DNA of 64,000 nucleotides from Candidatus Manganitrophus noduliformans. Lineage in GTDB: Bacteria; Nitrospirota; Nitrospiria; SBBL01; Manganitrophaceae. Positions 23,474 to 52,601 of this stretch are shown piece after piece. The notes under the pieces are model-generated. The model did no database searches. It had not been told where the DNA came from and worked only from the letters and a program-made list of their open reading frames with translations. Position 1 is the stretch's first letter; the number at the start of each line of letters is the position of its first letter. The position numbers and the translations under genes were made by a program. The DNA lies in contig NZ_VTOW01000001.1 in assembly GCF_012184425.1 (NCBI RefSeq), positions 124,001-188,000 on the forward strand, read 5' to 3'.

Positions 23474-25015
23474 ATGAACCATCACTTAACCCAAACATCC
23501 GATCGCCAGGCCCGGCGATACCGCTCTTTACTGGAGGTCGCGGAGGTGATCTCCCTTCGCCGGGATCTGGACGAATTGTTCCGAGAGTTGGCGCAGCGAC
23601 TTCCCGCGGTCGTTCATGTGAATTATGTGGCCCTCTCGCTCTATGATCCCGATCGCAATCTGATGCGGCTGCACACCCTTCAGGCCAATGTTCCCGCCGA
23701 GATCGTCGGGGGCCTCGAAGCCCCGATCGAAGCGTGTCCGGACGGGTTCGTCTGGAAAAACCAGCGGTCTGTTCTTGTTCCCGATCTTTCCAAAGAAGTG
23801 CGTTGGTCCAGGGTCATTCAGCTGATGCGGGAAGACGGCGCCCGCTCCTGTTGTTTCGTCCCATTGACGACCGCCCTTCGCAAGCTGGGGGCGATGGGAT
23901 TCACCAGCTCGAAAAGCGAAGCATGGGATCGGGAAGATCTGGAATTCTTGGAGCAGGTGGGAAGACAGGTCGCCGTGGCCGTCGAGAACGTCCTGGCCTA
24001 CCAAGAAATCAGCCGGCTCAAAGACAAGCTGGCGCAGGAAAAACTCTACTTAGAAGACGAAATTCACACCGAGCATAATTTTACGGAGATCATCGGAGAG
24101 AGCAAGGCGCTGAAGCGTGTTTTGAAGCAGGCGGAGACGGTCGCCTCGACCGACTCGACGGTGCTGATCCAGGGAGAAACCGGCACCGGCAAGGAGCTGA
24201 TCGCGCGCGCGATTCACAACTTAAGCGGGCGGCGCGAGCGGACCTTCGTGAAGATCAACTGCGCGGCGATCCCGATGGGCTTGTTGGAGAGCGAGCTCTT
24301 CGGCCATGAACGGGGGGCCTTCACCGGCGCCATCGCACAGAAGATCGGCCGGTTCGAGCTGGCCCATCAGGGAACCTTGTTTATGGATGAAGTCGGAGAC
24401 ATTCCGCTGGAACTGCAGGCAAAATTGTTGCGGGTGCTCCAGGAACAAGAGTTCGAGCGGCTCGGAAGCACCAAAACCATCAAGGTCAACGTCCGCCTGG
24501 TGACGGCGACGAACCGCGACCTGCCCCGGATGATTTCCGATAAAGCGTTCCGAAGCGACCTCTACTATCGCCTGAATGTCTTTCCGATCTTATTGCCGCC
24601 GCTGCGCGAGCGGCGCGAAGACATCCCTTTACTGGTGAGATACTTTGCCCAGAAATATTCGAGACGGATGAACAAACAGATCGAGGCGATCTCCGCCGAG
24701 ACGATGGAAGCGCTGACATGGTATGACTGGCCCGGTAATATCCGGGAGCTTGAGAATATGATCGAACGTGCGGTGATCCTCTCGCAAGAATCGACCCTTT
24801 TCGTTCCTTTGACGGAACTGAACCTCTCTACAGAAACCGGTCCCCACTCCCGCGTCTCCACGCTTGAGAGCGCCGAGAGAGAACATATCCTCCGGATTTT
24901 GAACGAAACAAACTGGGTCATCGCCGGCCCTTCCGGCGCGGCCGCCCGCCTCGGAATGAAACGGACCACCCTTCAACATAAAATGAAAAAGCTGAACATC
25001 TCCCGCCCCTCTTAG
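23474..25015 (+). CDS. GAF-domain sigma-54-dependent activator (NorR/FhlA type)
   Basis: A 513-residue enhancer-binding protein. Residues about 15-180 form a GAF domain, then a short coiled linker (ISRLKDKLAQEKLYLEDEI). The AAA+ domain has Walker A GETGTGKE, a canonical GAFTGA loop in HERGAFTGA, and Walker B TLFMDEVG. The C-terminus is a Fis-type HTH (GAAARLGMKRTTLQHKMKKLNI). It activates RNA polymerase-sigma-54 after sensing a small ligand. A sigma-54 promoter lies 133 bp downstream of its stop, ahead of the NmrA-like gene, its most likely target. Confidence 0.93.
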   Translation: MNHHLTQTSDRQARRYRSLLEVAEVISLRRDLDELFRELAQRLPAVVHVNYVALSLYDPDRNLMRLHTLQANVPAEIVGGLEAPIEACPDGFVWKNQRSVLVPDLSKEVRWSRVIQLMREDGARSCCFVPLTTALRKLGAMGFTSSKSEAWDREDLEFLEQVGRQVAVAVENVLAYQEISRLKDKLAQEKLYLEDEIHTEHNFTEIIGESKALKRVLKQAETVASTDSTVLIQGETGTGKELIARAIHNLSGRRERTFVKINCAAIPMGLLESELFGHERGAFTGAIAQKIGRFELAHQGTLFMDEVGDIPLELQAKLLRVLQEQEFERLGSTKTIKVNVRLVTATNRDLPRMISDKAFRSDLYYRLNVFPILLPPLRERREDIPLLVRYFAQKYSRRMNKQIEAISAETMEALTWYDWPGNIRELENMIERAVILSQESTLFVPLTELNLSTETGPHSRVSTLESAEREHILRILNETNWVIAGPSGAAARLGMKRTTLQHKMKKLNISRPS

Positions 25016-25147: not shown

Positions 25148-25163
25148 TGGTATGGGCTTTGCT
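25148..25163 (+). promoter_or_regulatory. sigma-54 promoter before NmrA-like gene
   Basis: TGGTATGGGCTTTGCT matches the -24/-12 pattern TGG(C/T)A(C/T)G-N4-TTGCT. The invariant GG (25149-25150) and GC (25161-25162) are exactly 10 bases apart. It lies about 160 bp ahead of ATG 25321, immediately downstream of a sigma-54 activator gene. Confidence 0.65.
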
Positions 25164-43764: not shown

Positions 43765-43895
43765 ATCGCGCACAAGGGGTCGTCGCTTTACTTTTGACTT
43801 TTACTGAATTGATGGTATTCCCCCTCTCTTTCCTACTCATCGTGAATTCTCAGGCAAACGAGTTTCGACCATTTGAAGCGGCTTTGTTGCCCCTC

Positions 43896-44073
43896 TGAAT
43901 TCAATCTTCCTTTGAAAAATATAGCATCCCGCAGAAGCAAGCTGGTTCGAATCCTATTTGGGATTGAGAATGTTTTGTGAACATCGGAAGGGGCAATTGG
44001 ATTCGGCTATGAGATCAAAAATGAGGGGAGCCGTTGGAATCTTCTCCAACGGCTCCCTCGAGCGTGGCTCCCC
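43896..44073. repeat. 178-bp direct repeat, left copy
   Basis: Diverged copy of 52433-52610, of identical length. Shared blocks in order: TGAATT..TCTTCCTTTG, GGTTCGAATCC, TTGTGAA, the hairpin GGAGCCGTTGGA/TCCAACGGCTCC, and TGGCTCCCC (the tRNA-Asn 3' end on the plus strand). The two copies enclose the kinase/sigma-54 region. Confidence 0.7.
44024..44060 (-). terminator. hairpin copied from the tRNA-Asn terminator
   Basis: GGAGCCGTTGGA and TCCAACGGCTCC form a 12-bp stem, followed on the minus strand by CCCTCATTTTTG. It may end transcription of the FG-GAP gene. Confidence 0.6.
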
Positions 44074-44248
44074 TTCATTAATACGTGCTGAATGCTCTCC
44101 GAGTCTCACCGGGACAGCGGCGATAGAATTCAGAGATACAAAAAAGTAACGGAGAGGAATCTCGCCGGGATCGCAGGGTTGACGTCGTGGCTGAAGCGTT
44201 CATCCCGCTCGGTTGCTTACTCCTCCATGGTCCAATTGTTAATAATTG

Positions 44249-46723
44249 TTAATAGAGATAAACGGCACCGATCCTCATCATCGCGTCGTCATCTTGGTTG
44301 CCATCGATGCCGGTAGCGGCGCTAGACTCGAATCTCGCTCCCGCTGCGAGCGTGGCTCCATCTCCGCTGAGTGCAACAGAGTGGCCGAACCAATCGCCTG
44401 CATCCGTATTGGACGCTTTGATATAAGCCTCTTGGCTCCAGCTCTCCCCGTTTCGGACAAAGAAGTAAACCGCTCCGGAGTCGTCGGCGGAATTGTCGGT
44501 CTGGTTACCGTGGATGCCGGCGGCCGCGCTCGCTTCATTCAGTGCTCCCACAGCCAATGTATTTCCGTCCGCACCGAGAGCGACAGAAAAACCGAACCAA
44601 TCGCCTGCATCCGTATTGGACGCTTTGATATAAGCCTGCTGACTCCAGTTCCCCCCGCTTCGGACAAAGAGGTAAACGGCCCCGGCCTGGCGGGCGGAAG
44701 TGTCGGCTTGATTCCCATTGATACCGGTGGCTGAGCTCGGTTCCGCATAGGCCCCCACAGCAAGGGTGTTCCCATCGCCGCTGAGCGTCACAGCGTAGCC
44801 AAACAGGCCGCCCTCACTTCCTCCAAACGGATTGAACCCGTGTGTGATGGAGGGCTTGATATAGGCTTGTTGGCTCCAGCTCTCGCCATCGCGAATAAAG
44901 AGATAAACCGCACCCGCGTTCTGAGCGGAATTGTCGGCCTGGTTTCCATTGATCCCGGTCGCCGCGCTCGCCTCCCCCCATGCCCCGACGGCCAGTGCGC
45001 TTCCATCGGTGCTGAGGGCAACAGACCAGCCGAATTTATCCGACGCGCCTGTATTGGAGCCTTTGATATAGGCTTGCTGGGTCCAGCTTCCGTTCCGAAA
45101 GAAAAGGTAAACGGCGCCGGAATCTTGACCACCCGAATCTTCGTACGGTGCTCCCACGGCGAGCGTATTTCCATCTCCGCTGAGGGCAACCGAGTCGCCA
45201 AACTCGTCGCCGATATTCGTATTGGACGATTTAATATAAGCCTCTTGGCTCCAACTCTCCCCACTTCGGATAAAGAGGTAAACCGCACCCGCGTTATTAG
45301 CGGAATTGTCGGCCTGGTTGCCGTTGATGCCGGTGGCTGCGCTCGCTTCGTATCGCGCTCCTACGGCGAGCGTATTCCCATCTGCGCTGAGTGCAACAGA
45401 GTAGCCGAACCCATCGCCTGCATCCGTATTGGACGCTTTGATATAAGCCTGCTGACTCCAGTTCCCCCCGCTTCGGGCAAAGAGGTAAACCGCCCCGGAG
45501 TCGGCGGCGGAATTGTCGGCCTGGTTGCCGTTGATGCCGGTGGCCGCGCTCGCTTCATTCAGTGCTCCCACGGCGAGCGTGTTCCCATCCCCGCTGAGGG
45601 CAACCGAGAAACCAAAAGAGAGACCAAAATCGTCGGAGGGCCCTTTGTTAGAGGATTTGAAATAGCCGATGGTCTGGAGCATGCCATCGAGGACGTCAAT
45701 CTCATTGGAATCGATGCAACCTCTCTGGTCGCAAGCGGATAAACGGTAGCGCGCCTTCCCCCAGTTGTGGCGATAAACGACAATGTCGCGCGTGACCGCT
45801 GTCGTGCCGGCCGGGATGTCTCCCCCGATTTGTGAAAAACCGGAAACGCCATCCGGGTTCTCAAAGAGCCGGTAGAAAGTGTCATCGCCGATTTTGGGCC
45901 AATCGAACTGCAGTTGTTTGATTCCGAAAGTCACTGTGAGAGGGAATGATCCTGGAGGAATGACCGTCATTTCAATAGTACCGGAAAGGTGGGTCTCCGT
46001 ATGGACGGCGGTGATGACGACAGTGCCGGGAGAGACAGCGCTGACAAGGCCGGTGTCGCTGACGGTCGCAACGGCATCGCCGGATGACTGCCAATTCATG
46101 AAGGAAGTCAGATCCTGCTCTGCTCCCGTATTGAACGAGCCGGAGACTTTTAACTGCATGGTGGCGCCGACCCCCAAATCCGTATCAGACGCCGTGACAT
46201 GAATTGAGAGCAGCCGCACGGGAGAGCGGGGGTCTTTGGGATCGGTTCCATCCAAGAGCTCCTGGAGGTTCGAGAGACCGTCCTGATCGTCATCCGGGTA
46301 CTGCAAAACGGAGGAGTCGATGGCCACCAAGCTCGTCTCCCCCGCTTTCACTTCGACCTCCGAGCTCCAGATTGCAACGATCAGATCGTTCATCCGATAG
46401 GTAATCGTCAGGGTATGTTGGCCGGGTGCCAGGCCGTCGATCCGACCTGCTACTGTTTTGTTCTCAAGATCGACCGTCAGTTGCATGGGAGCCCCCCCGT
46501 CCACGCTGACCTCGGCCGTGAGCGGGATCTGTGAGGGAGCCGTCCGTACCAGCGGCTCGGCTAAGGGCACCGACAACTGCTGGGCGGACCCTCCCGGCTG
46601 CAGGGTCGACGAGGAGGTCCCCGAGCCACACCCGAAGGCAGAGAGGAGAATCGAAGCCCATATGAAAAGCAGAAGGGAGGATTCCGGCAAAGATCGCCTG
46701 GTGGATGGGGTGAAGGTATTCAT
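44249..46723 (-). CDS. lipoprotein with seven FG-GAP-like repeats
   Basis: About 824 residues; start ATG 46723 (AGAGGAAG upstream; a longer frame to 46888 would run through the upstream gene). The signal ends LLLSAFGC, a lipobox. Then a region with VPLAEPLVRTAPSQIPLTAEVSVDGG, a dockerin-like calcium loop (DDDQDGLSNLQELLDGTDPKD), a BIG2-type Ig domain (LLSIHVTASDTDLGVGATMQLKVSGSF), an Fn3-like segment, and seven near-identical repeats of about 62-66 residues. Each repeat has F-G-x-SVALSxDGNTLAVGA, most have an insert GINGNQADNSA, and each ends GAVYLF. The last ends IGAVYLY. Likely a surface beta-propeller for adhesion or ligand sensing. It follows the Ig-like protein by 11 bp and lies under a sigma-54 promoter. 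Confidence 0.85.
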   Translation of the reverse strand: MNTFTPSTRRSLPESSLLLFIWASILLSAFGCGSGTSSSTLQPGGSAQQLSVPLAEPLVRTAPSQIPLTAEVSVDGGAPMQLTVDLENKTVAGRIDGLAPGQHTLTITYRMNDLIVAIWSSEVEVKAGETSLVAIDSSVLQYPDDDQDGLSNLQELLDGTDPKDPRSPVRLLSIHVTASDTDLGVGATMQLKVSGSFNTGAEQDLTSFMNWQSSGDAVATVSDTGLVSAVSPGTVVITAVHTETHLSGTIEMTVIPPGSFPLTVTFGIKQLQFDWPKIGDDTFYRLFENPDGVSGFSQIGGDIPAGTTAVTRDIVVYRHNWGKARYRLSACDQRGCIDSNEIDVLDGMLQTIGYFKSSNKGPSDDFGLSFGFSVALSGDGNTLAVGALNEASAATGINGNQADNSAADSGAVYLFARSGGNWSQQAYIKASNTDAGDGFGYSVALSADGNTLAVGARYEASAATGINGNQADNSANNAGAVYLFIRSGESWSQEAYIKSSNTNIGDEFGDSVALSGDGNTLAVGAPYEDSGGQDSGAVYLFFRNGSWTQQAYIKGSNTGASDKFGWSVALSTDGSALAVGAWGEASAATGINGNQADNSAQNAGAVYLFIRDGESWSQQAYIKPSITHGFNPFGGSEGGLFGYAVTLSGDGNTLAVGAYAEPSSATGINGNQADTSARQAGAVYLFVRSGGNWSQQAYIKASNTDAGDWFGFSVALGADGNTLAVGALNEASAAAGIHGNQTDNSADDSGAVYFFVRNGESWSQEAYIKASNTDAGDWFGHSVALSGDGATLAAGARFESSAATGIDGNQDDDAMMRIGAVYLY
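44270..45670 (-). repeat. tandem DNA repeats coding for seven FG-GAP-like units
   Basis: About 190-bp units, visible as repeated blocks such as TTGATATAAGCCT, CAGTTCCCCCCGCTTC and GGAATTGTCGGCCTGGTT. Two units carry shorter or longer inserts (one loses the GINGN insert, one gains FNPFGGSEGG). Suited to recombination between units. Confidence 0.8.
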
Positions 46724-46734
46724 CTTCCTCTTGC

Positions 46735-47409
46735 TCACTGTCCGACCGCCGGTCCGACGATGGCGACGGAGCCGGTCGTCGGCGCGCCCCCTCCTTCGCC
46801 ATCGTCCCTTCCATCGGTTCCTCCATGTCCCGCGACAGCAACCCCGCCCGCAATCACGGCGGCACCCACAATCGTCCAGACCCACCATTTTTTATACCAG
46901 GGGGGTGAGGCATCCTCCCGCCGCAGGGTGATCCGCTCCAATGCAGCGCTGCTCGGCTCAGAAGGGGCTGCATCCTGTCTCAAAGGAGGTGCAGCCACAA
47001 TGGCGACCGTCAGGGGGGTGAAGGAGAAGCCCCGAAAGGAGATGTTCCCGGAAGGGTCGTTGGTTTGAATATAGTATTCAATCTGCCCGGAGGAGACCTC
47101 TTGGCTCGGAAGCGCGACCGCGAAGAGATCCTGACTGACGCGCTTCATCTGAAGCGGGGAGTACTCCTCCGTCCCCTTCAGTCGATAGTAGAGCGTGACT
47201 TCTTCCACCCCGACATTATCGGTGATGACGGCTTGAAGGACGAAAGGGAGTCCCGCGACGACTGCTTGATCGGGAGGCTCATGTCGAATGGAGGGAGCGA
47301 TCGTATCCGAAGCGGGATCACCCCCCTCCTCGGCGAACAGGGGGGACAGGGGAAGGAGAACGAAAGCGTAGAGGGCGACAATCGGAAGCAGGATCCCATT
47401 CGGTTTCAT
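46735..47409 (-). CDS. exported Ig-like protein with C-terminal membrane anchor
   Basis: A 224-residue protein: signal peptide (LLPIVALYAFVLLPLSPLFAEE), an Ig/cadherin-like domain of about 100 residues (IAPSIRHEPPDQAVVAGLPFVLQAVITDNVGVEEVTLYYRLKGTEEYSPLQMKRVSQDLFAVALP...IEYYIQTNDPSGNIS), a linker, a helix WWVWTIVGAAVIAGGVAVAGHGG, then a Gly-rich tail with GGTDGRDDGEGGG. It is first behind the sigma-54 promoter at 47453-47468 and precedes the FG-GAP lipoprotein by 11 bp. It probably presents the Ig domain in the periplasm or anchors the partner. Confidence 0.75.
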   Translation of the reverse strand: MKPNGILLPIVALYAFVLLPLSPLFAEEGGDPASDTIAPSIRHEPPDQAVVAGLPFVLQAVITDNVGVEEVTLYYRLKGTEEYSPLQMKRVSQDLFAVALPSQEVSSGQIEYYIQTNDPSGNISFRGFSFTPLTVAIVAAPPLRQDAAPSEPSSAALERITLRREDASPPWYKKWWVWTIVGAAVIAGGVAVAGHGGTDGRDDGEGGGAPTTGSVAIVGPAVGQ

Positions 47410-47452
47410 GCGCGGCTCTCCCTGGACGACTCAATCTGAGGAACGAACACTA

Positions 47453-47468
47453 GCAAGAAACGCGCCAA
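47453..47468 (-). promoter_or_regulatory. near-consensus sigma-54 promoter for the exported-protein operon
   Basis: On the minus strand: TTGGCGCGTTTCTTGCTA. The GG (47466-47465) and GC (47454-47453) are exactly 10 bases apart and the flanks match TGGCACG-N4-TTGCT with one mismatch. Expected transcript start near 47441, about 32 bp before ATG 47409. It lies between the FHA activator gene and its likely targets. A sigma-70-like TTGACA-TAGTGT pair overlaps it. Confidence 0.75.
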
Positions 47469-47487
47469 CCTGTCAAGGCGGAATATG

Positions 47488-48879
47488 TCAGGAGGGGATC
47501 GTCCCATCTTTCAACGGTGATTCATCTTTCTTGGAGAGTCCCGGGATCTGAATTCCATACTTCTTCATTTTGTAATAAATGGTGCCCCGGCTCACCTTCA
47601 ATACCTTGGCGGCCTTGATGGCATTCCACTCATGCGCCTCCAGCGTGCGGAGGAGAAGCTGCCGCATGCTCTCTTGTAAAGGAGCGGTTTCGGCCGGTGA
47701 TTGAAATTCCTCCAGGGATTGTCCCGGCCACGCGGCGCTGGAAAATAGGGCGGCTTCATCAAGGGAGTAAGGCGGGCGGGCGCGGATGAGCGCGCCGTAG
47801 ATAAAATTTTCAAGTTGGCGGGTGTTCCCCGGCCATGGCGCGCGCTGAAGGCGATGCCGAGCCTCGGGGGTGAGGAGAGGGCAGGCCGGGAGCCCCAGTT
47901 CCTGAGAAAAGGCTTGGAGGAAGTGGGCCGCCAGCAACGGGATATCTTCCGGGCGCTCCCTGAGTGGCGGAAGAAAAATCTCGGCGACCTTCAGCCGATA
48001 GTAAAGATCGGGCCGGAACACTTCTTCCTCGACCGCACGTTCAAGGTCCTTGTTTGTCGCGGCAATCACCCGGACATCCACGGGGATTTCATACGCGCTT
48101 CCAAGGCGATTGATCTTCTTTCCCTGTAGAAAGCGGAGGAGCTTCGCCTGTGCCGCCGGGCTCAACTCCCCGATTTCGTCCAAAAAGAGCGTGCCTCCAT
48201 CGGCCTCTTCGGTCTTTCCCTTCTTTGCCGTCTGCGCCCCGGTGAAGGTCCCCTTTTCATACCCGAAGAGCTCGCTTTCAATCAGCTCCAAGGGGATGGC
48301 GGCGGCGTTCACCGGGAGAAACGGTTTTTGCCTTCGTGGGCTTGCCTCATGAATGGCGCGCGCCACCAGCTCTTTTCCGGTTCCATGCTCGCCGCGAATC
48401 AGAACGGTCGCCGTGCTCTTCGCCACATCTTGAATCATCTGATAGATTTGCTGCATCGGCGGGCTCTCGCCGATCAAAATTCCGAAGTGGTAAATCAAAG
48501 CAGAGGAGGGCGGGGAAAAAGCAGGAGAGGGTGCTTCGCCCCCTCTTTTTTCCCCGGATCGTCTATGGGAAAGGGGGGCCGTTTCTTCCTCACCTTCATA
48601 GAAACACTCGAGCTCAAATGGATAGATCTCTACGCGGCAGCGGGGAGCGAGCGGCGCGACGCCCGAAACCTTCTTCCCGTTCACAAAGACGCCGTTGGAG
48701 CTTCGATCCTCCAGAAGAAATTCCTCCCCTCTTCGCGCGATGATCGCGTGCAGCCGTGAGACGTGCTCGTCGGGAAGGATGAGGTCATTGTCCGCCGACC
48801 GTCCGACGGTGATCTCTCTTTTCGAGAGAACCACCTTTTGGATCAATTTTTTATCCTGAAATATCTTCAGTTCCAGCAT
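47488..48879 (-). CDS. FHA-domain sigma-54-dependent activator
   Basis: A 463-residue enhancer-binding protein. Residues 1-100 form an FHA domain with GRSADND, S41-x-x-H44, N62-G and N67-G, which bind phosphothreonine. A linker leads to the AAA+ domain: Walker A GEHGTGKE (163-170), the sigma-54 loop GTFTGA (in place of GAFTGA, 210-215), and Walker B TLFLDEIG. The Fis-type HTH (NAIKAAKVLKVSRGTIYYKMKKYGI) is C-terminal. It begins 4 bp after the Ser/Thr kinase stop, so kinase and activator are co-transcribed; phosphorylated kinase is the obvious FHA ligand. The sigma-54 promoter at 47453 is its likely target. Confidence 0.94.
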   Translation of the reverse strand: MLELKIFQDKKLIQKVVLSKREITVGRSADNDLILPDEHVSRLHAIIARRGEEFLLEDRSSNGVFVNGKKVSGVAPLAPRCRVEIYPFELECFYEGEEETAPLSHRRSGEKRGGEAPSPAFSPPSSALIYHFGILIGESPPMQQIYQMIQDVAKSTATVLIRGEHGTGKELVARAIHEASPRRQKPFLPVNAAAIPLELIESELFGYEKGTFTGAQTAKKGKTEEADGGTLFLDEIGELSPAAQAKLLRFLQGKKINRLGSAYEIPVDVRVIAATNKDLERAVEEEVFRPDLYYRLKVAEIFLPPLRERPEDIPLLAAHFLQAFSQELGLPACPLLTPEARHRLQRAPWPGNTRQLENFIYGALIRARPPYSLDEAALFSSAAWPGQSLEEFQSPAETAPLQESMRQLLLRTLEAHEWNAIKAAKVLKVSRGTIYYKMKKYGIQIPGLSKKDESPLKDGTIPS

Positions 48880-48883
48880 CCGT

Positions 48884-50884
48884 TCACCAGATCAGTTTTC
48901 CCCACCGCTCCCCCTTTTTTCGAATGATCGCCCGGCTCTTCTTCCACTCTTTATGAGGGGAAACGGGATCGCCTTCCCGATCAATCAGCTTGTAAACCTC
49001 AATGGTTAAGGCGGTGGCGTCGCGGGTGAGGGATAAATCGGAGTAGGAGATTTTGACGATCGGATAGGTCCGGAACATCTCTTCCAGAATCCGGCTGCGC
49101 TCCGGCGACATCTCGCTGATTTGCAGAAGCGCGGCCATGTCTTGCGCCTCGAAGGCGGTCTTGAATTCGGCCAGAAGATCGCTGATCACTTCCAAGTCGG
49201 GCCGAGGAGCCGAAAGGGAGGAGGACGGCGGAGGCACGGTCTCGTTCGCAATCTCTTGGAGAGCGGGGGAAGAAGCGATTTCCTCTCCCTGAACCGCTTT
49301 GCCGGGAAGTTCCTCCGTGGAGGGGAGGGAGACCGCCGACGGTTCTGTGACCGCCTCTGCAGGGAAGGGCCGTATCTGCTCCTGCTCCAGGGGGCCCGGC
49401 GCTGAATGCAACGAAGGAGGTAAGTTGTCATTGATCGGTTGTACCGGTATCTCCTCTCGAGTAATGCCGTCTTGAATCGGCTCTTCCCGGTTTAAAACGA
49501 TTTCCACTTGTTTCTCCCTCTTCTCCGAAATCGTGGATGGAACCCGGTTTCCCTCCGGTGTAGAAGGGATTGGAGGGGCCAAGATCACGGCGATCTCAGG
49601 GGGAGCGGGCAATGTCGGAGCTTCAGCCGTGGTCACTGTCGCTTTAATTGGGCCCTCTTCATTCCGAAAGGGATTCTCTGTCGCTTGTTGCTGCAGATGG
49701 ACTTCAATCGATTTTACGGTTGTCTTCGGATCAGGGAGGGATGTTGTTTCGGTTAAAGCTGAAAAAATGAACTGAGAGAGAAAAAGGTAAATCGCTCCGA
49801 TGATAAAAAAAACGATCACTCCCGCCAGGAAAATAGAGAATGTCCCGCTTTGGCGCCTTGCATCGTTTTTTCCGATCGGCGTCGTGATGCAAGGGGAAAG
49901 GTCTAAGAGAGGGGTCGAGATCCGGATCGAGGATGCTTCGTCGCGGACGAGGGAATCCTTTTCAAGCGTGTGGACGGCGGGGAGCGGTGATCCCTCCTTT
50001 TTCGAAGGGGTACACTCCTTTATCTCTTTTGCGATCGTTGCAATCTCGGCCGCAAGCGTCCGCGCATCGGGGATCCGTTCCCGAGCTTGCTTCCTCAAAA
50101 GAGATCGGACCAATTCCTGAATAGTAGAAGGGACTGCGGAGGAGAACAATAGGACAAATTCATTCTGGTCGGAGATTAATTTCCCGAGGACGGATGGCCG
50201 CGAGATTCCCTCGAAAGGGGTTCTGCCGGTGAGCATTTTGTAAAAGACCATTCCAAGAGAATAGAGATCGCTCCGGCCGTCGATCGGCTCACCCTGCGCC
50301 TGCTCGGGCGACATATACTCCGGGGTCCCGAGGATTTCTCCCGTCGGAGTCGCCGAGAGTTCGTCCGCAGCGGCCACAATTCCGAAGTCGGTAATTTTCA
50401 CATGCCCGCCGCGATCGACGAGAATATTTCCCGGCTTTATATCCCGATGAATAATTCCCTTGCCGTGTGCGAAGGAGAGCGCCTCCGCCGCCTGAAGAAC
50501 CATTGCGCAGGCCTCTAAGGGGGGAAAAGACCGCCTCTCTAAAATAAGTTGTTTGAGGTCCCTGCCGGGGAAGAGCTCCATGACGATATAGTATGGGTCT
50601 TGTGCCTCGGATACGTCATAGATCCGAATGATGTTCGGATGATCGAGGCGGGCGAGGGCCCGCGCTTCTCGTTCAAAGCGCTTCAGGAAAGAAACATCAC
50701 TTCGATATTCGGGATAGAGGACTTTGACGGCGACCGGGCGGTTGAGGGCCGTATGAATCGCCCTATAGATCACCCCCATCCCCCCCCGGGCGATTTCCTC
50801 TTGAATTTCATATTTCGCCGAGAGGAGGGGCTTCTGGGGTGATAATGAAAGCATCGTTTGAGGCAGGCGAATGGACTCTTTCAC
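48884..50884 (-). CDS. transmembrane Ser/Thr protein kinase
   Basis: A 666-residue PknB-like kinase, start GTG 50884 after TGGAGAGAA. Kinase domain residues 25-290: glycine loop IARGGMGVIY, K54 in VAVKVL, E73, HRDIKPGN (146-152), DFG (166-168), and GTPEYMSPEQ. A single membrane helix spans about 348-372 (FSIFLAGVIVFFIIGAIYLFLSQF). The outer half is a Pro/Glu-rich linker followed by a C-terminal region (PDLEVISDLLAEFKTAFEAQDMAALLQISEMSPERSRILEEMF...) that resembles an NTF2/SnoaL-type sensor, though this is uncertain. It should phosphorylate the FHA activator, receive an external signal, or both. Confidence 0.92.
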   Translation of the reverse strand: MKESIRLPQTMLSLSPQKPLLSAKYEIQEEIARGGMGVIYRAIHTALNRPVAVKVLYPEYRSDVSFLKRFEREARALARLDHPNIIRIYDVSEAQDPYYIVMELFPGRDLKQLILERRSFPPLEACAMVLQAAEALSFAHGKGIIHRDIKPGNILVDRGGHVKITDFGIVAAADELSATPTGEILGTPEYMSPEQAQGEPIDGRSDLYSLGMVFYKMLTGRTPFEGISRPSVLGKLISDQNEFVLLFSSAVPSTIQELVRSLLRKQARERIPDARTLAAEIATIAKEIKECTPSKKEGSPLPAVHTLEKDSLVRDEASSIRISTPLLDLSPCITTPIGKNDARRQSGTFSIFLAGVIVFFIIGAIYLFLSQFIFSALTETTSLPDPKTTVKSIEVHLQQQATENPFRNEEGPIKATVTTAEAPTLPAPPEIAVILAPPIPSTPEGNRVPSTISEKREKQVEIVLNREEPIQDGITREEIPVQPINDNLPPSLHSAPGPLEQEQIRPFPAEAVTEPSAVSLPSTEELPGKAVQGEEIASSPALQEIANETVPPPSSSLSAPRPDLEVISDLLAEFKTAFEAQDMAALLQISEMSPERSRILEEMFRTYPIVKISYSDLSLTRDATALTIEVYKLIDREGDPVSPHKEWKKSRAIIRKKGERWGKLIW

Positions 50885-51227
50885 TTCTCTCCAGAAATAA
50901 AGGCGAACAGTACTAAGGAGCCGAATGCAAAGACGGCCGAAGATGTTTTGACCTAGTATGTTGTGCTGTATTCATACCGGAACTCGATACACTTTTCAAC
51001 TCTTTTCCCCGCCTAAGCAATATTACCGACCCTCCTTAGCGGCATCTCTCTTGCTCCATGAAAACCTGTTTGTTAAAGAAACCAGATCCCTTCCGGGCTT
51101 GTGGTTTTTCCCATCCACGGGAGGGCGATCCCATTGTAAAGGGATGAATCTTTAGGAACGGTACACGCCTAAAAGTCGTTGTCTGAAAAACTCCGCCGGA
51201 ATGTGCGCCAATGTTCGTTGAGCATGA
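50885..51227. other. 343-bp divergent intergenic region
   Basis: It separates the kinase gene (minus) from the receiver gene (plus). A sigma-70 promoter for the kinase is at 50971-50999. A GG-N10-GC pair at about 51154-51168 is too poor at -12 for a sigma-54 call. Confidence 0.5.
50971..50999 (-). promoter_or_regulatory. sigma-70-like promoter of the kinase/FHA operon
   Basis: Minus strand: TTGAAA (50999-50994), spacer 17, TATGAA (50976-50971). About 87 bp before the GTG at 50884. Confidence 0.5.
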
Positions 51228-51602
51228 ATGAAAACCATCCTGATCGTTGACAATCACCCTGAGTTCTTGATTGCGGTAAGTCACTTGGTCGCCGACCTGC
51301 TTCAAGATTTGCAGAAAGGACCGGTGAAAATCTTGAGAACGACTTCTGCGATCGCAGCCTTCAATGCAAGCCGCAGTCAGCGCATTGACCTGTTGATCAC
51401 CGATTATCAAATTCCGAATGAGATGAATGGATTTCAACTGATCTCTCGCCTTCGCGACAGGCCCGAAATGCGCAAAGTTCTGATGACGTTTGGGTCTTTG
51501 GAGCTTCTTGAGGCATTGGCGGCAGAGCAGGGGGTCGATGATGTCCTCCGAAAACCGATCGAGGAGAACGAATTAAGGACGATTCTTGAAAAATACATCT
51601 GA
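51228..51602 (+). CDS. stand-alone response regulator receiver domain
   Basis: A 124-residue single receiver domain without an output domain. TILIVDNHPEF supplies the N-terminal acidic pocket (with N in place of a second D), D59 in LLITDYQIP the phosphate acceptor, and LRKP the conserved Lys. It is divergent from the kinase operon inside the repeat-bounded island. No histidine kinase is near, so it is an orphan; it may be a phosphate sink or a link to Ser/Thr signalling. Confidence 0.85.
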   Translation: MKTILIVDNHPEFLIAVSHLVADLLQDLQKGPVKILRTTSAIAAFNASRSQRIDLLITDYQIPNEMNGFQLISRLRDRPEMRKVLMTFGSLELLEALAAEQGVDDVLRKPIEENELRTILEKYI

Positions 51603-52601
51603 AATGATGAAGATAACATCGGAGGGACGCCGCCGTCCTCTACCGTGTGCGGGTCTAAAATCGATCTTCATGAATTTAAAAATGGGCGAGCAAGCAAGAT
51701 GATTGAAGAGGTCTCTGTTTAAATTTTTAAACGATTGAGAGATTGATGTTGAAGAATTTGAACAAGTGAGATCCAAATATTCCATTCAGAAGTAATGGGG
51801 GCCGAGCCACTCTCGGCCCGACCCCAAGGATGAAGCGCCGAGCAACATCTTCCGCCATTAACCTGTCTTATTTATCCGGTGCGAGGTACCCGCGCACCAG
51901 AATGTGCCGTATTCCAAATGGAGGACCAGAAGGACCTGGAGAAACATCAGGACAAAGACACGCCTTGGATGAAACAACAAACCCGCTTGTCATCCGTTCG
52001 CTGATACCCTGTCCGACACCACTGAGCGTGATTGTAGAATCAATAACCCTCTGTCCCCCCAACGGATCTGCCAGATTTTGTACTCTCCTGGCAGATTCCA
52101 CCCCTCCACTGACTCAAAGTCCATTCCTTTCCAATGCCTTTTTTCACAAATTCCAGACAACGATTCTCTGCCTCGCCTCTGCAGTATCGTTGACCCCGTA
52201 TTTCGTAGGTCGCATCGCATAGCCGACGGACCCGGCGGAAAGGCTAATAAAGAAAATGCAACGTCAAGAAAATAAATTTAAATATGGGATAACTTAAAAT
52301 CGGAACAGCGATTAGTGAGAGGACTCAGTGATTACGATCATTCGCTAGGCTGGCATTGTAGATTACCATTACGATTCTTAAAATGAGAGTTTTCCCAATT
52401 GAGAGATTTACGGGTGTACTTTCCGACCTTCCTGAATTTGGTCTTCCTTTGTATATAATTCTTCAGGGAAAAGGGGGTTCGAATCCGATCTGGGGCGATA
52501 GAGAAAGGGTTGTGAATGTCATAAAACAAGTTGAGATTTCTGTTGTGAAATGAAAAAGGAAAGGAGCCGTTGGAATGATCTCCAACGGCTCCTTCTAGAC
52601 C
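51603..52601. other. about 1 kb without a recognisable gene
   Basis: Overlapping frames on both strands (51830-52222 plus; 51868-52101 and 51990-52220 minus) resemble no family and have unlike codon use. The base composition is more AT-rich than in surrounding genes. A hairpin (GGGGGCCGAG...CTCGGCCCGACCCC) is at about 51798-51826. The right direct repeat begins at 52433. Possible decayed DNA. Confidence 0.5.

Follow-up and report, generated by a model that had tools for sequence, protein, structure and literature searches.

The window analysed here, a 64,000-nucleotide stretch of the genome of Candidatus Manganitrophus noduliformans (Nitrospirota), very probably contains a real sigma-54 promoter, situated in the short gap between the gene for an FHA-domain activator and an operon for exported proteins (Table 1). 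Judging from the sequence and from homologous loci, we put at roughly 0.8 the probability that this is a functional sigma-54 core driving the exported operon (47409-44249) as the output of an accessory Ser/Thr-kinase/FHA-activator module. Direct control of the core by the adjacent FHA activator appears plausible and is only partly supported.

Genes around the promoter

The domain content of the activator (bEBP) was established with Pfam, which recovered FHA (PF00498, E = 2.1 × 10−16) at the N terminus, Sigma54_activat and HTH_8, and invariant alignment columns indicate that the Walker motifs, the R fingers and the Fis-type HTH are all kept. The GAFTGA motif, intact in the other nine aligned homologs, reads GTFTGA in the window protein, a form unique among the activators covered by our motif survey; Thr at the second position of this motif has been listed as putatively functional (PMC3162934). 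The kinase gene directly precedes the activator gene, as in a kinase - FHA-bEBP - PP2C cassette, and the two genes, separated by a 4-bp gap, are probably co-transcribed. For the first gene behind the promoter, the encoded protein had no Pfam match, and inspection by eye revealed a signal peptide, an Ig-like region, a C-terminal WYKKWWVW membrane segment and a Gly-rich tail. The start of the second gene was set at MNTFTPSTRRS..., 11 bp past the first gene, as inferred from the lipobox LSAFGC. Open frames are intact for the kinase, the activator and the two exported genes, and catalytic motifs are retained.

Table 1 Features of the kinase-activator module and the exported operon in the window
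Feature	Position	Strand	Basis
Predicted sigma-54 core promoter, TGGCGCG-TTTC-TTGCT	47452..47467	-	Sequence match, matrix scan, position behind activator
FHA - AAA+ (Sigma54_activat) - Fis-type HTH activator (bEBP), 463 aa	47488..48879	-	Pfam, alignment, motif survey
Transmembrane Ser/Thr protein kinase	48884..50884	-	Pkinase domain 25-271, E = 2.5 × 10−55; HRDIKPGN and DFG present
Exported 224-aa protein, first gene behind promoter	46735..47409	-	Features by eye
Putative lipoprotein, Big_2 domain and FG-GAP repeats, second operon gene	44249..46723	-	Pfam; start inferred

Promoter core and its position

The −24/−12 core is the 16-mer TGGCGCGTTTCTTGCT, which departs from TGGCACG-N4-TTGCW by one mismatch and has the GG-N10-GC spacing that an earlier, sequence-only reading of the window had reported. 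That reading had set the core one base too high, at 47453-47468, and was otherwise accurate about its surroundings: counting from the C of the −12 element at 47453, transcription would be expected to start at approximately 47441, which gives a leader of 32 nt up to the ATG at 47409, a distance and strand that suit the downstream gene, and 78 bp (47410-47487) do separate the activator stop (47488) from that ATG. A scan with a sigma-54 matrix, which the same reading had proposed, returned the core as the top match on both strands of the window, with 15.9 bits against 14.6 for the runner-up; this matrix is approximate, with weights modelled on published consensus tables and a maximum of 19.3 bits. 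A consensus scan of the 78-bp gap found no sigma-70-like promoter and no terminator. The genome has a single rpoN match (Sigma54_DBD at G000:C2:119087-119569, E = 5.7 × 10−57).

The possibility that a GC-rich gap had produced GG-N10-GC by chance was weighed with randomised windows and genome-wide statistics, the latter comprising pattern searches and the activator loci. When the whole window was randomised 100 times with an order-1 Markov model, 10 of the resulting sequences had an equally good match somewhere (approximately 0.1 per 128 kb of strand), and exact matches to TGGCRCGN4TTGCW are not enriched in the 5.17-Mb genome (2 found, with approximately 3.5 expected from base composition), both of which favour an accident. 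When up to one mismatch was allowed, the motif set likewise showed no enrichment (61 genome-wide versus 81 for the reversed control). Motif rarity was dropped as proof of a promoter, given an exact count no higher than composition predicts and a one-mismatch count below the reversed control, and the promoter claim rests on position because the motif is not enriched genome-wide. Position, however, makes a chance match very improbable: scaled from the randomisations, the chance of an equally good core falling in the 78-bp gap on the correct strand is approximately 5 × 10−5, and homologous cassettes have a core at the equivalent position.

Cores behind activator genes across the genome

A core directly behind an activator gene is a general habit of this genome (G000), which holds 39 activator matches, counting the window activator itself and a few fragments. 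Among 30 activator loci (L002-L031), 16 have a same-strand core of at least 12 bits within 300 bp past the activator stop, compared with a shuffle mean of 0.2 for those 30 loci and 0 on the opposite strand. At 21 bp, the window core lies nearest to its activator stop; for the 17 other loci where a core reaches at least 11.5 bits, this distance is 113-304 bp.

The second-best match in the window, TGGTATGGGCTTTGCT at 25148-25163 (+), belongs to locus L023 and is among the 16 activator-linked cores. It is found 133 bp past another activator gene (approximately 24074-25012 +, ending at approximately 25012-25015), with the palindrome ATCTGCCGGCATGTCGGCAGAT between that gene and the core, and the next gene is NmrA-like in appearance.

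Homologous kinase-activator cassettes

The window activator has a paralog on contig C3 of the same genome (62% identity) and further homologs in other Nitrospirota. Among the closer homologs, the kinase gene is followed by the FHA activator gene, a gap of approximately 200 bp, a small exported gene in some cassettes, a PP2C-like phosphatase gene, a gene for an exported protein homologous to 46735-47409 and then genes for further exported proteins. The PP2C-like gene, identified by motif, is present in the C3 paralog cassette and in G002, G003, G005, G034 and G015; behind the window activator it is absent, and the exported-protein genes come next.

We inspected the gap and core at nine homologous loci, seven of which have a good core behind the FHA activator, with CGGCATAGGCTTTGCT in the C3 paralog cassette and TGGCATGTGCTTTGCT, CGGCATATCCTTTGCT (two genomes), TGGCATACCGATTGCA, TGGCATATGAAATGCA and TGGCAAATCTCTTGCA in cassettes of other genomes; two distant loci have weak cores (AGGTATGCATCTTGCT and TAGCAAGGCTCTTGCA). 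Because the sister cassettes carry a core in the matching place, the window core is very probably genuine, and it outscores the cores of most of them. In the C3 paralog cassette, the likely PP2C ATG is at +31 relative to the predicted start, matching the window ATG. The homologous cassettes tested lack a core ahead of their exported-protein gene, as would fit the window core being the output promoter of the cassette, brought near that gene.

Candidate enhancer palindromes in relatives

At ten Nitrospirota loci, the C3 paralog included (L101, L102, L103, L104, L105, L107, L111, L112, L113 and L212), the FHA-activator gene is followed by one or two copies of the palindrome TTTCAAAnnTTTGAAA, mostly paired at 20-21 bp (approximately two helical turns). 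Eight gaps, and a ninth in G089 where the contig ends before a core, were scored for tandem copies, and none of 1,000 Markov shuffles per gap equalled them. Measured start-to-start, the nearer palindrome (up to three mismatches) precedes the core by 134, 135, 136, 135, 139, 134 and 135 bp (the 135 bp of G027 being taken from its first, better palindrome), and at two loci by 112 and 109 bp, approximately two turns shorter; typical sigma-54 enhancers lie approximately 100-150 bp upstream (PMC7057263). Even in G022, where an opposite-strand gene intervenes between the activator gene and a single palindrome, the core is again 134 bp from the palindrome. In G005, the cassette palindrome is one of two sites with up to one mismatch. 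The homologs at L130 and L213, which have no core or PP2C gene behind them, have no palindromes close to the activator. From this position and conservation we infer that the FHA activator binds the TTTCAAAnnTTTGAAA palindromes, which would make them candidate enhancers.

A second conserved core, TGGCATGYCTTTTGCG, was observed at L101, L103 and L104, approximately 4.4-5.9 kb past the activator and before a small lipoprotein gene (MSLGV.RKFTSILVGIAALLVLSGCG). At L103, the G003 activator matches in two reading frames, with an apparent frameshift near the FHA domain.

The window promoter and the family enhancer

The sequence-only reading had suggested looking for activator-binding sites within the 3′ end of 47488-48879. 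Searches for the family pattern and for tandem spacing, and open scans for palindromes, returned nothing above background there, and this check came out negative because the whole 64-kb window contains no TTTCAAAnnTTTGAAA family palindrome at up to two mismatches, nor its tandem form, and open scans of the 430 bp before the core gave no palindrome above background. An imperfect or unknown site may be present. The family-specific absence is the stronger statement; absence of any palindrome is weak evidence, because only 3 of 18 other activators have palindromes behind them that reach P ≤ 0.05, and palindromes were accordingly rejected as a general enhancer detector. The direct repeat CATCTTTC, with 18-bp spacing (47505/47523), was considered as an enhancer and found unconvincing, being a two-copy 8-mer. 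The lack of both the PP2C gene and tandem TTTCAAAnnTTTGAAA makes the window cassette a divergent relative of the family and not a typical member, and with the enhancer missing, direct activation by the neighbouring activator should not be taken for granted. The earlier proposal of a core next to its presumed activator thus stands as regards the promoter, on the strength of rpoN, the activator domains, the activator-core habit of the genome and the sister cores, and only partly as regards direct control by the neighbour, the family palindromes being absent.

These observations also bear on which activator serves the promoter. Another activator, possibly the C3 paralog, might switch a real sigma-54 promoter at this site, with the adjacent activator either no longer in control or acting in trans at the enhancer of the paralog. 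The recognition helices of the two activators are near-identical in alignment (VSRGTIYYKMKKYGI versus VSRGTVYYKLKKYGI), genome-wide the TTTCAAAnnTTTGAAA sites with up to one mismatch are confined to the tandem pair of the C3 cassette, and the window promoter has no family site of its own. The C3 enhancer, however, is equally absent from the window promoter, which leaves nothing to link that promoter with the paralog, and an activator gene with a core beside it is the normal arrangement in this genome; we therefore regard service by another activator as possible but unlikely.

Origin and distribution of the cassette

The whole cassette lies within an 8.7-kb segment (43825..52542) that is missing from the corresponding site in G003 and G005, two genomes of the same genus. 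The flanks of the segment are collinear and 91-95% identical in G003 and G005, where other short content fills the place, and 43825-52542 is a variable site. In the activator tree, the window protein is unplaced, apart from the C3 group, and this, together with the absence of the segment from the sister genomes, identifies the window cassette as an accessory, diverged copy, either acquired or an old paralog. A window-type cassette was found neither in 58 relatives nor in 396 genomes of the phylum nor among the retained genome-scan loci, so the window core cannot be footprinted directly.

An acquired or duplicated cassette could also have become a relict, having lost its enhancer and phosphatase, with a core that is silent or leaky and exported genes that, if transcribed at all, are read through from the kinase promoter. 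The missing enhancer and PP2C gene, the altered GAFTGA, the accessory nature of the segment and the lack of a terminator in the gap on consensus scanning speak for a relict. Against this, the four genes of the module and operon remain intact with catalytic motifs retained, and the core scores above those of most sister cassettes, and we consider a relict quite improbable.

Proposed mechanism and known systems

For a functional core serving the exported operon, we infer a course of kinase-FHA signalling, phosphorylation, direct activation and expression, in which the transmembrane kinase (48884-50884) would sense a signal and phosphorylate a target, phospho-threonine would be read by the activator's FHA domain and the AAA+ ring would remodel sigma-54 RNA polymerase at the core. 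Compared with its relatives, the window copy is trimmed, without the PP2C gene, without the tandem enhancer and with the core 21 bp past the activator stop, so the activator would have to work without the candidate enhancer of the family, from solution or via an unrecognised site, unless another activator serves the promoter. More specifically, and only tentatively, the window may hold an enhancer-less derivative of a kinase-gated sigma-54 circuit, in which a bEBP with an HTH and GTFTGA activates its neighbour from solution or from a new site, an interpretation that we still consider doubtful. If true, the window module and the enhancer-bearing paralog would constitute a natural with/without-enhancer pair in one cell, a single genome having one copy with the enhancer and one without. 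With the core, kinase, phosphatase and exported targets all named, along with a candidate enhancer that is specific to the family and keeps a fixed spacing, a sigma-54 circuit driven by eukaryote-type phosphorylation in Nitrospirota, here in a probably manganese-oxidising Ca. Manganitrophus, becomes concrete enough to test.

FHA-domain bEBPs occur in Myxococcus and in type VI secretion loci, and are thought to read the output of Ser/Thr kinases. The window activator resembles them in placing an FHA sensor on a sigma-54 AAA+ activator (41% identity to the Myxococcus homolog L132), but differs in belonging to a Nitrospirota subfamily whose cassettes include a kinase of their own, and usually PP2C, and whose targets are exported Ig-like/FG-GAP proteins. 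The locus is also like sigma-54 promoters with an adjacently encoded bEBP, sharing the −24/−12 core, the Fis-type HTH bEBP and the adjoining target operon, and unlike them in having no recognised enhancer between bEBP and core. Exported and envelope proteins as sigma-54 targets are a theme of earlier work (PMC3162934), which the window targets fit. Finally, FlgR and CtcC, the group 5 bEBPs, act without DNA binding (PMC7175178), and a window activator acting from solution would possibly resemble them, although, unlike FlgR and CtcC, it retains a well-conserved HTH.
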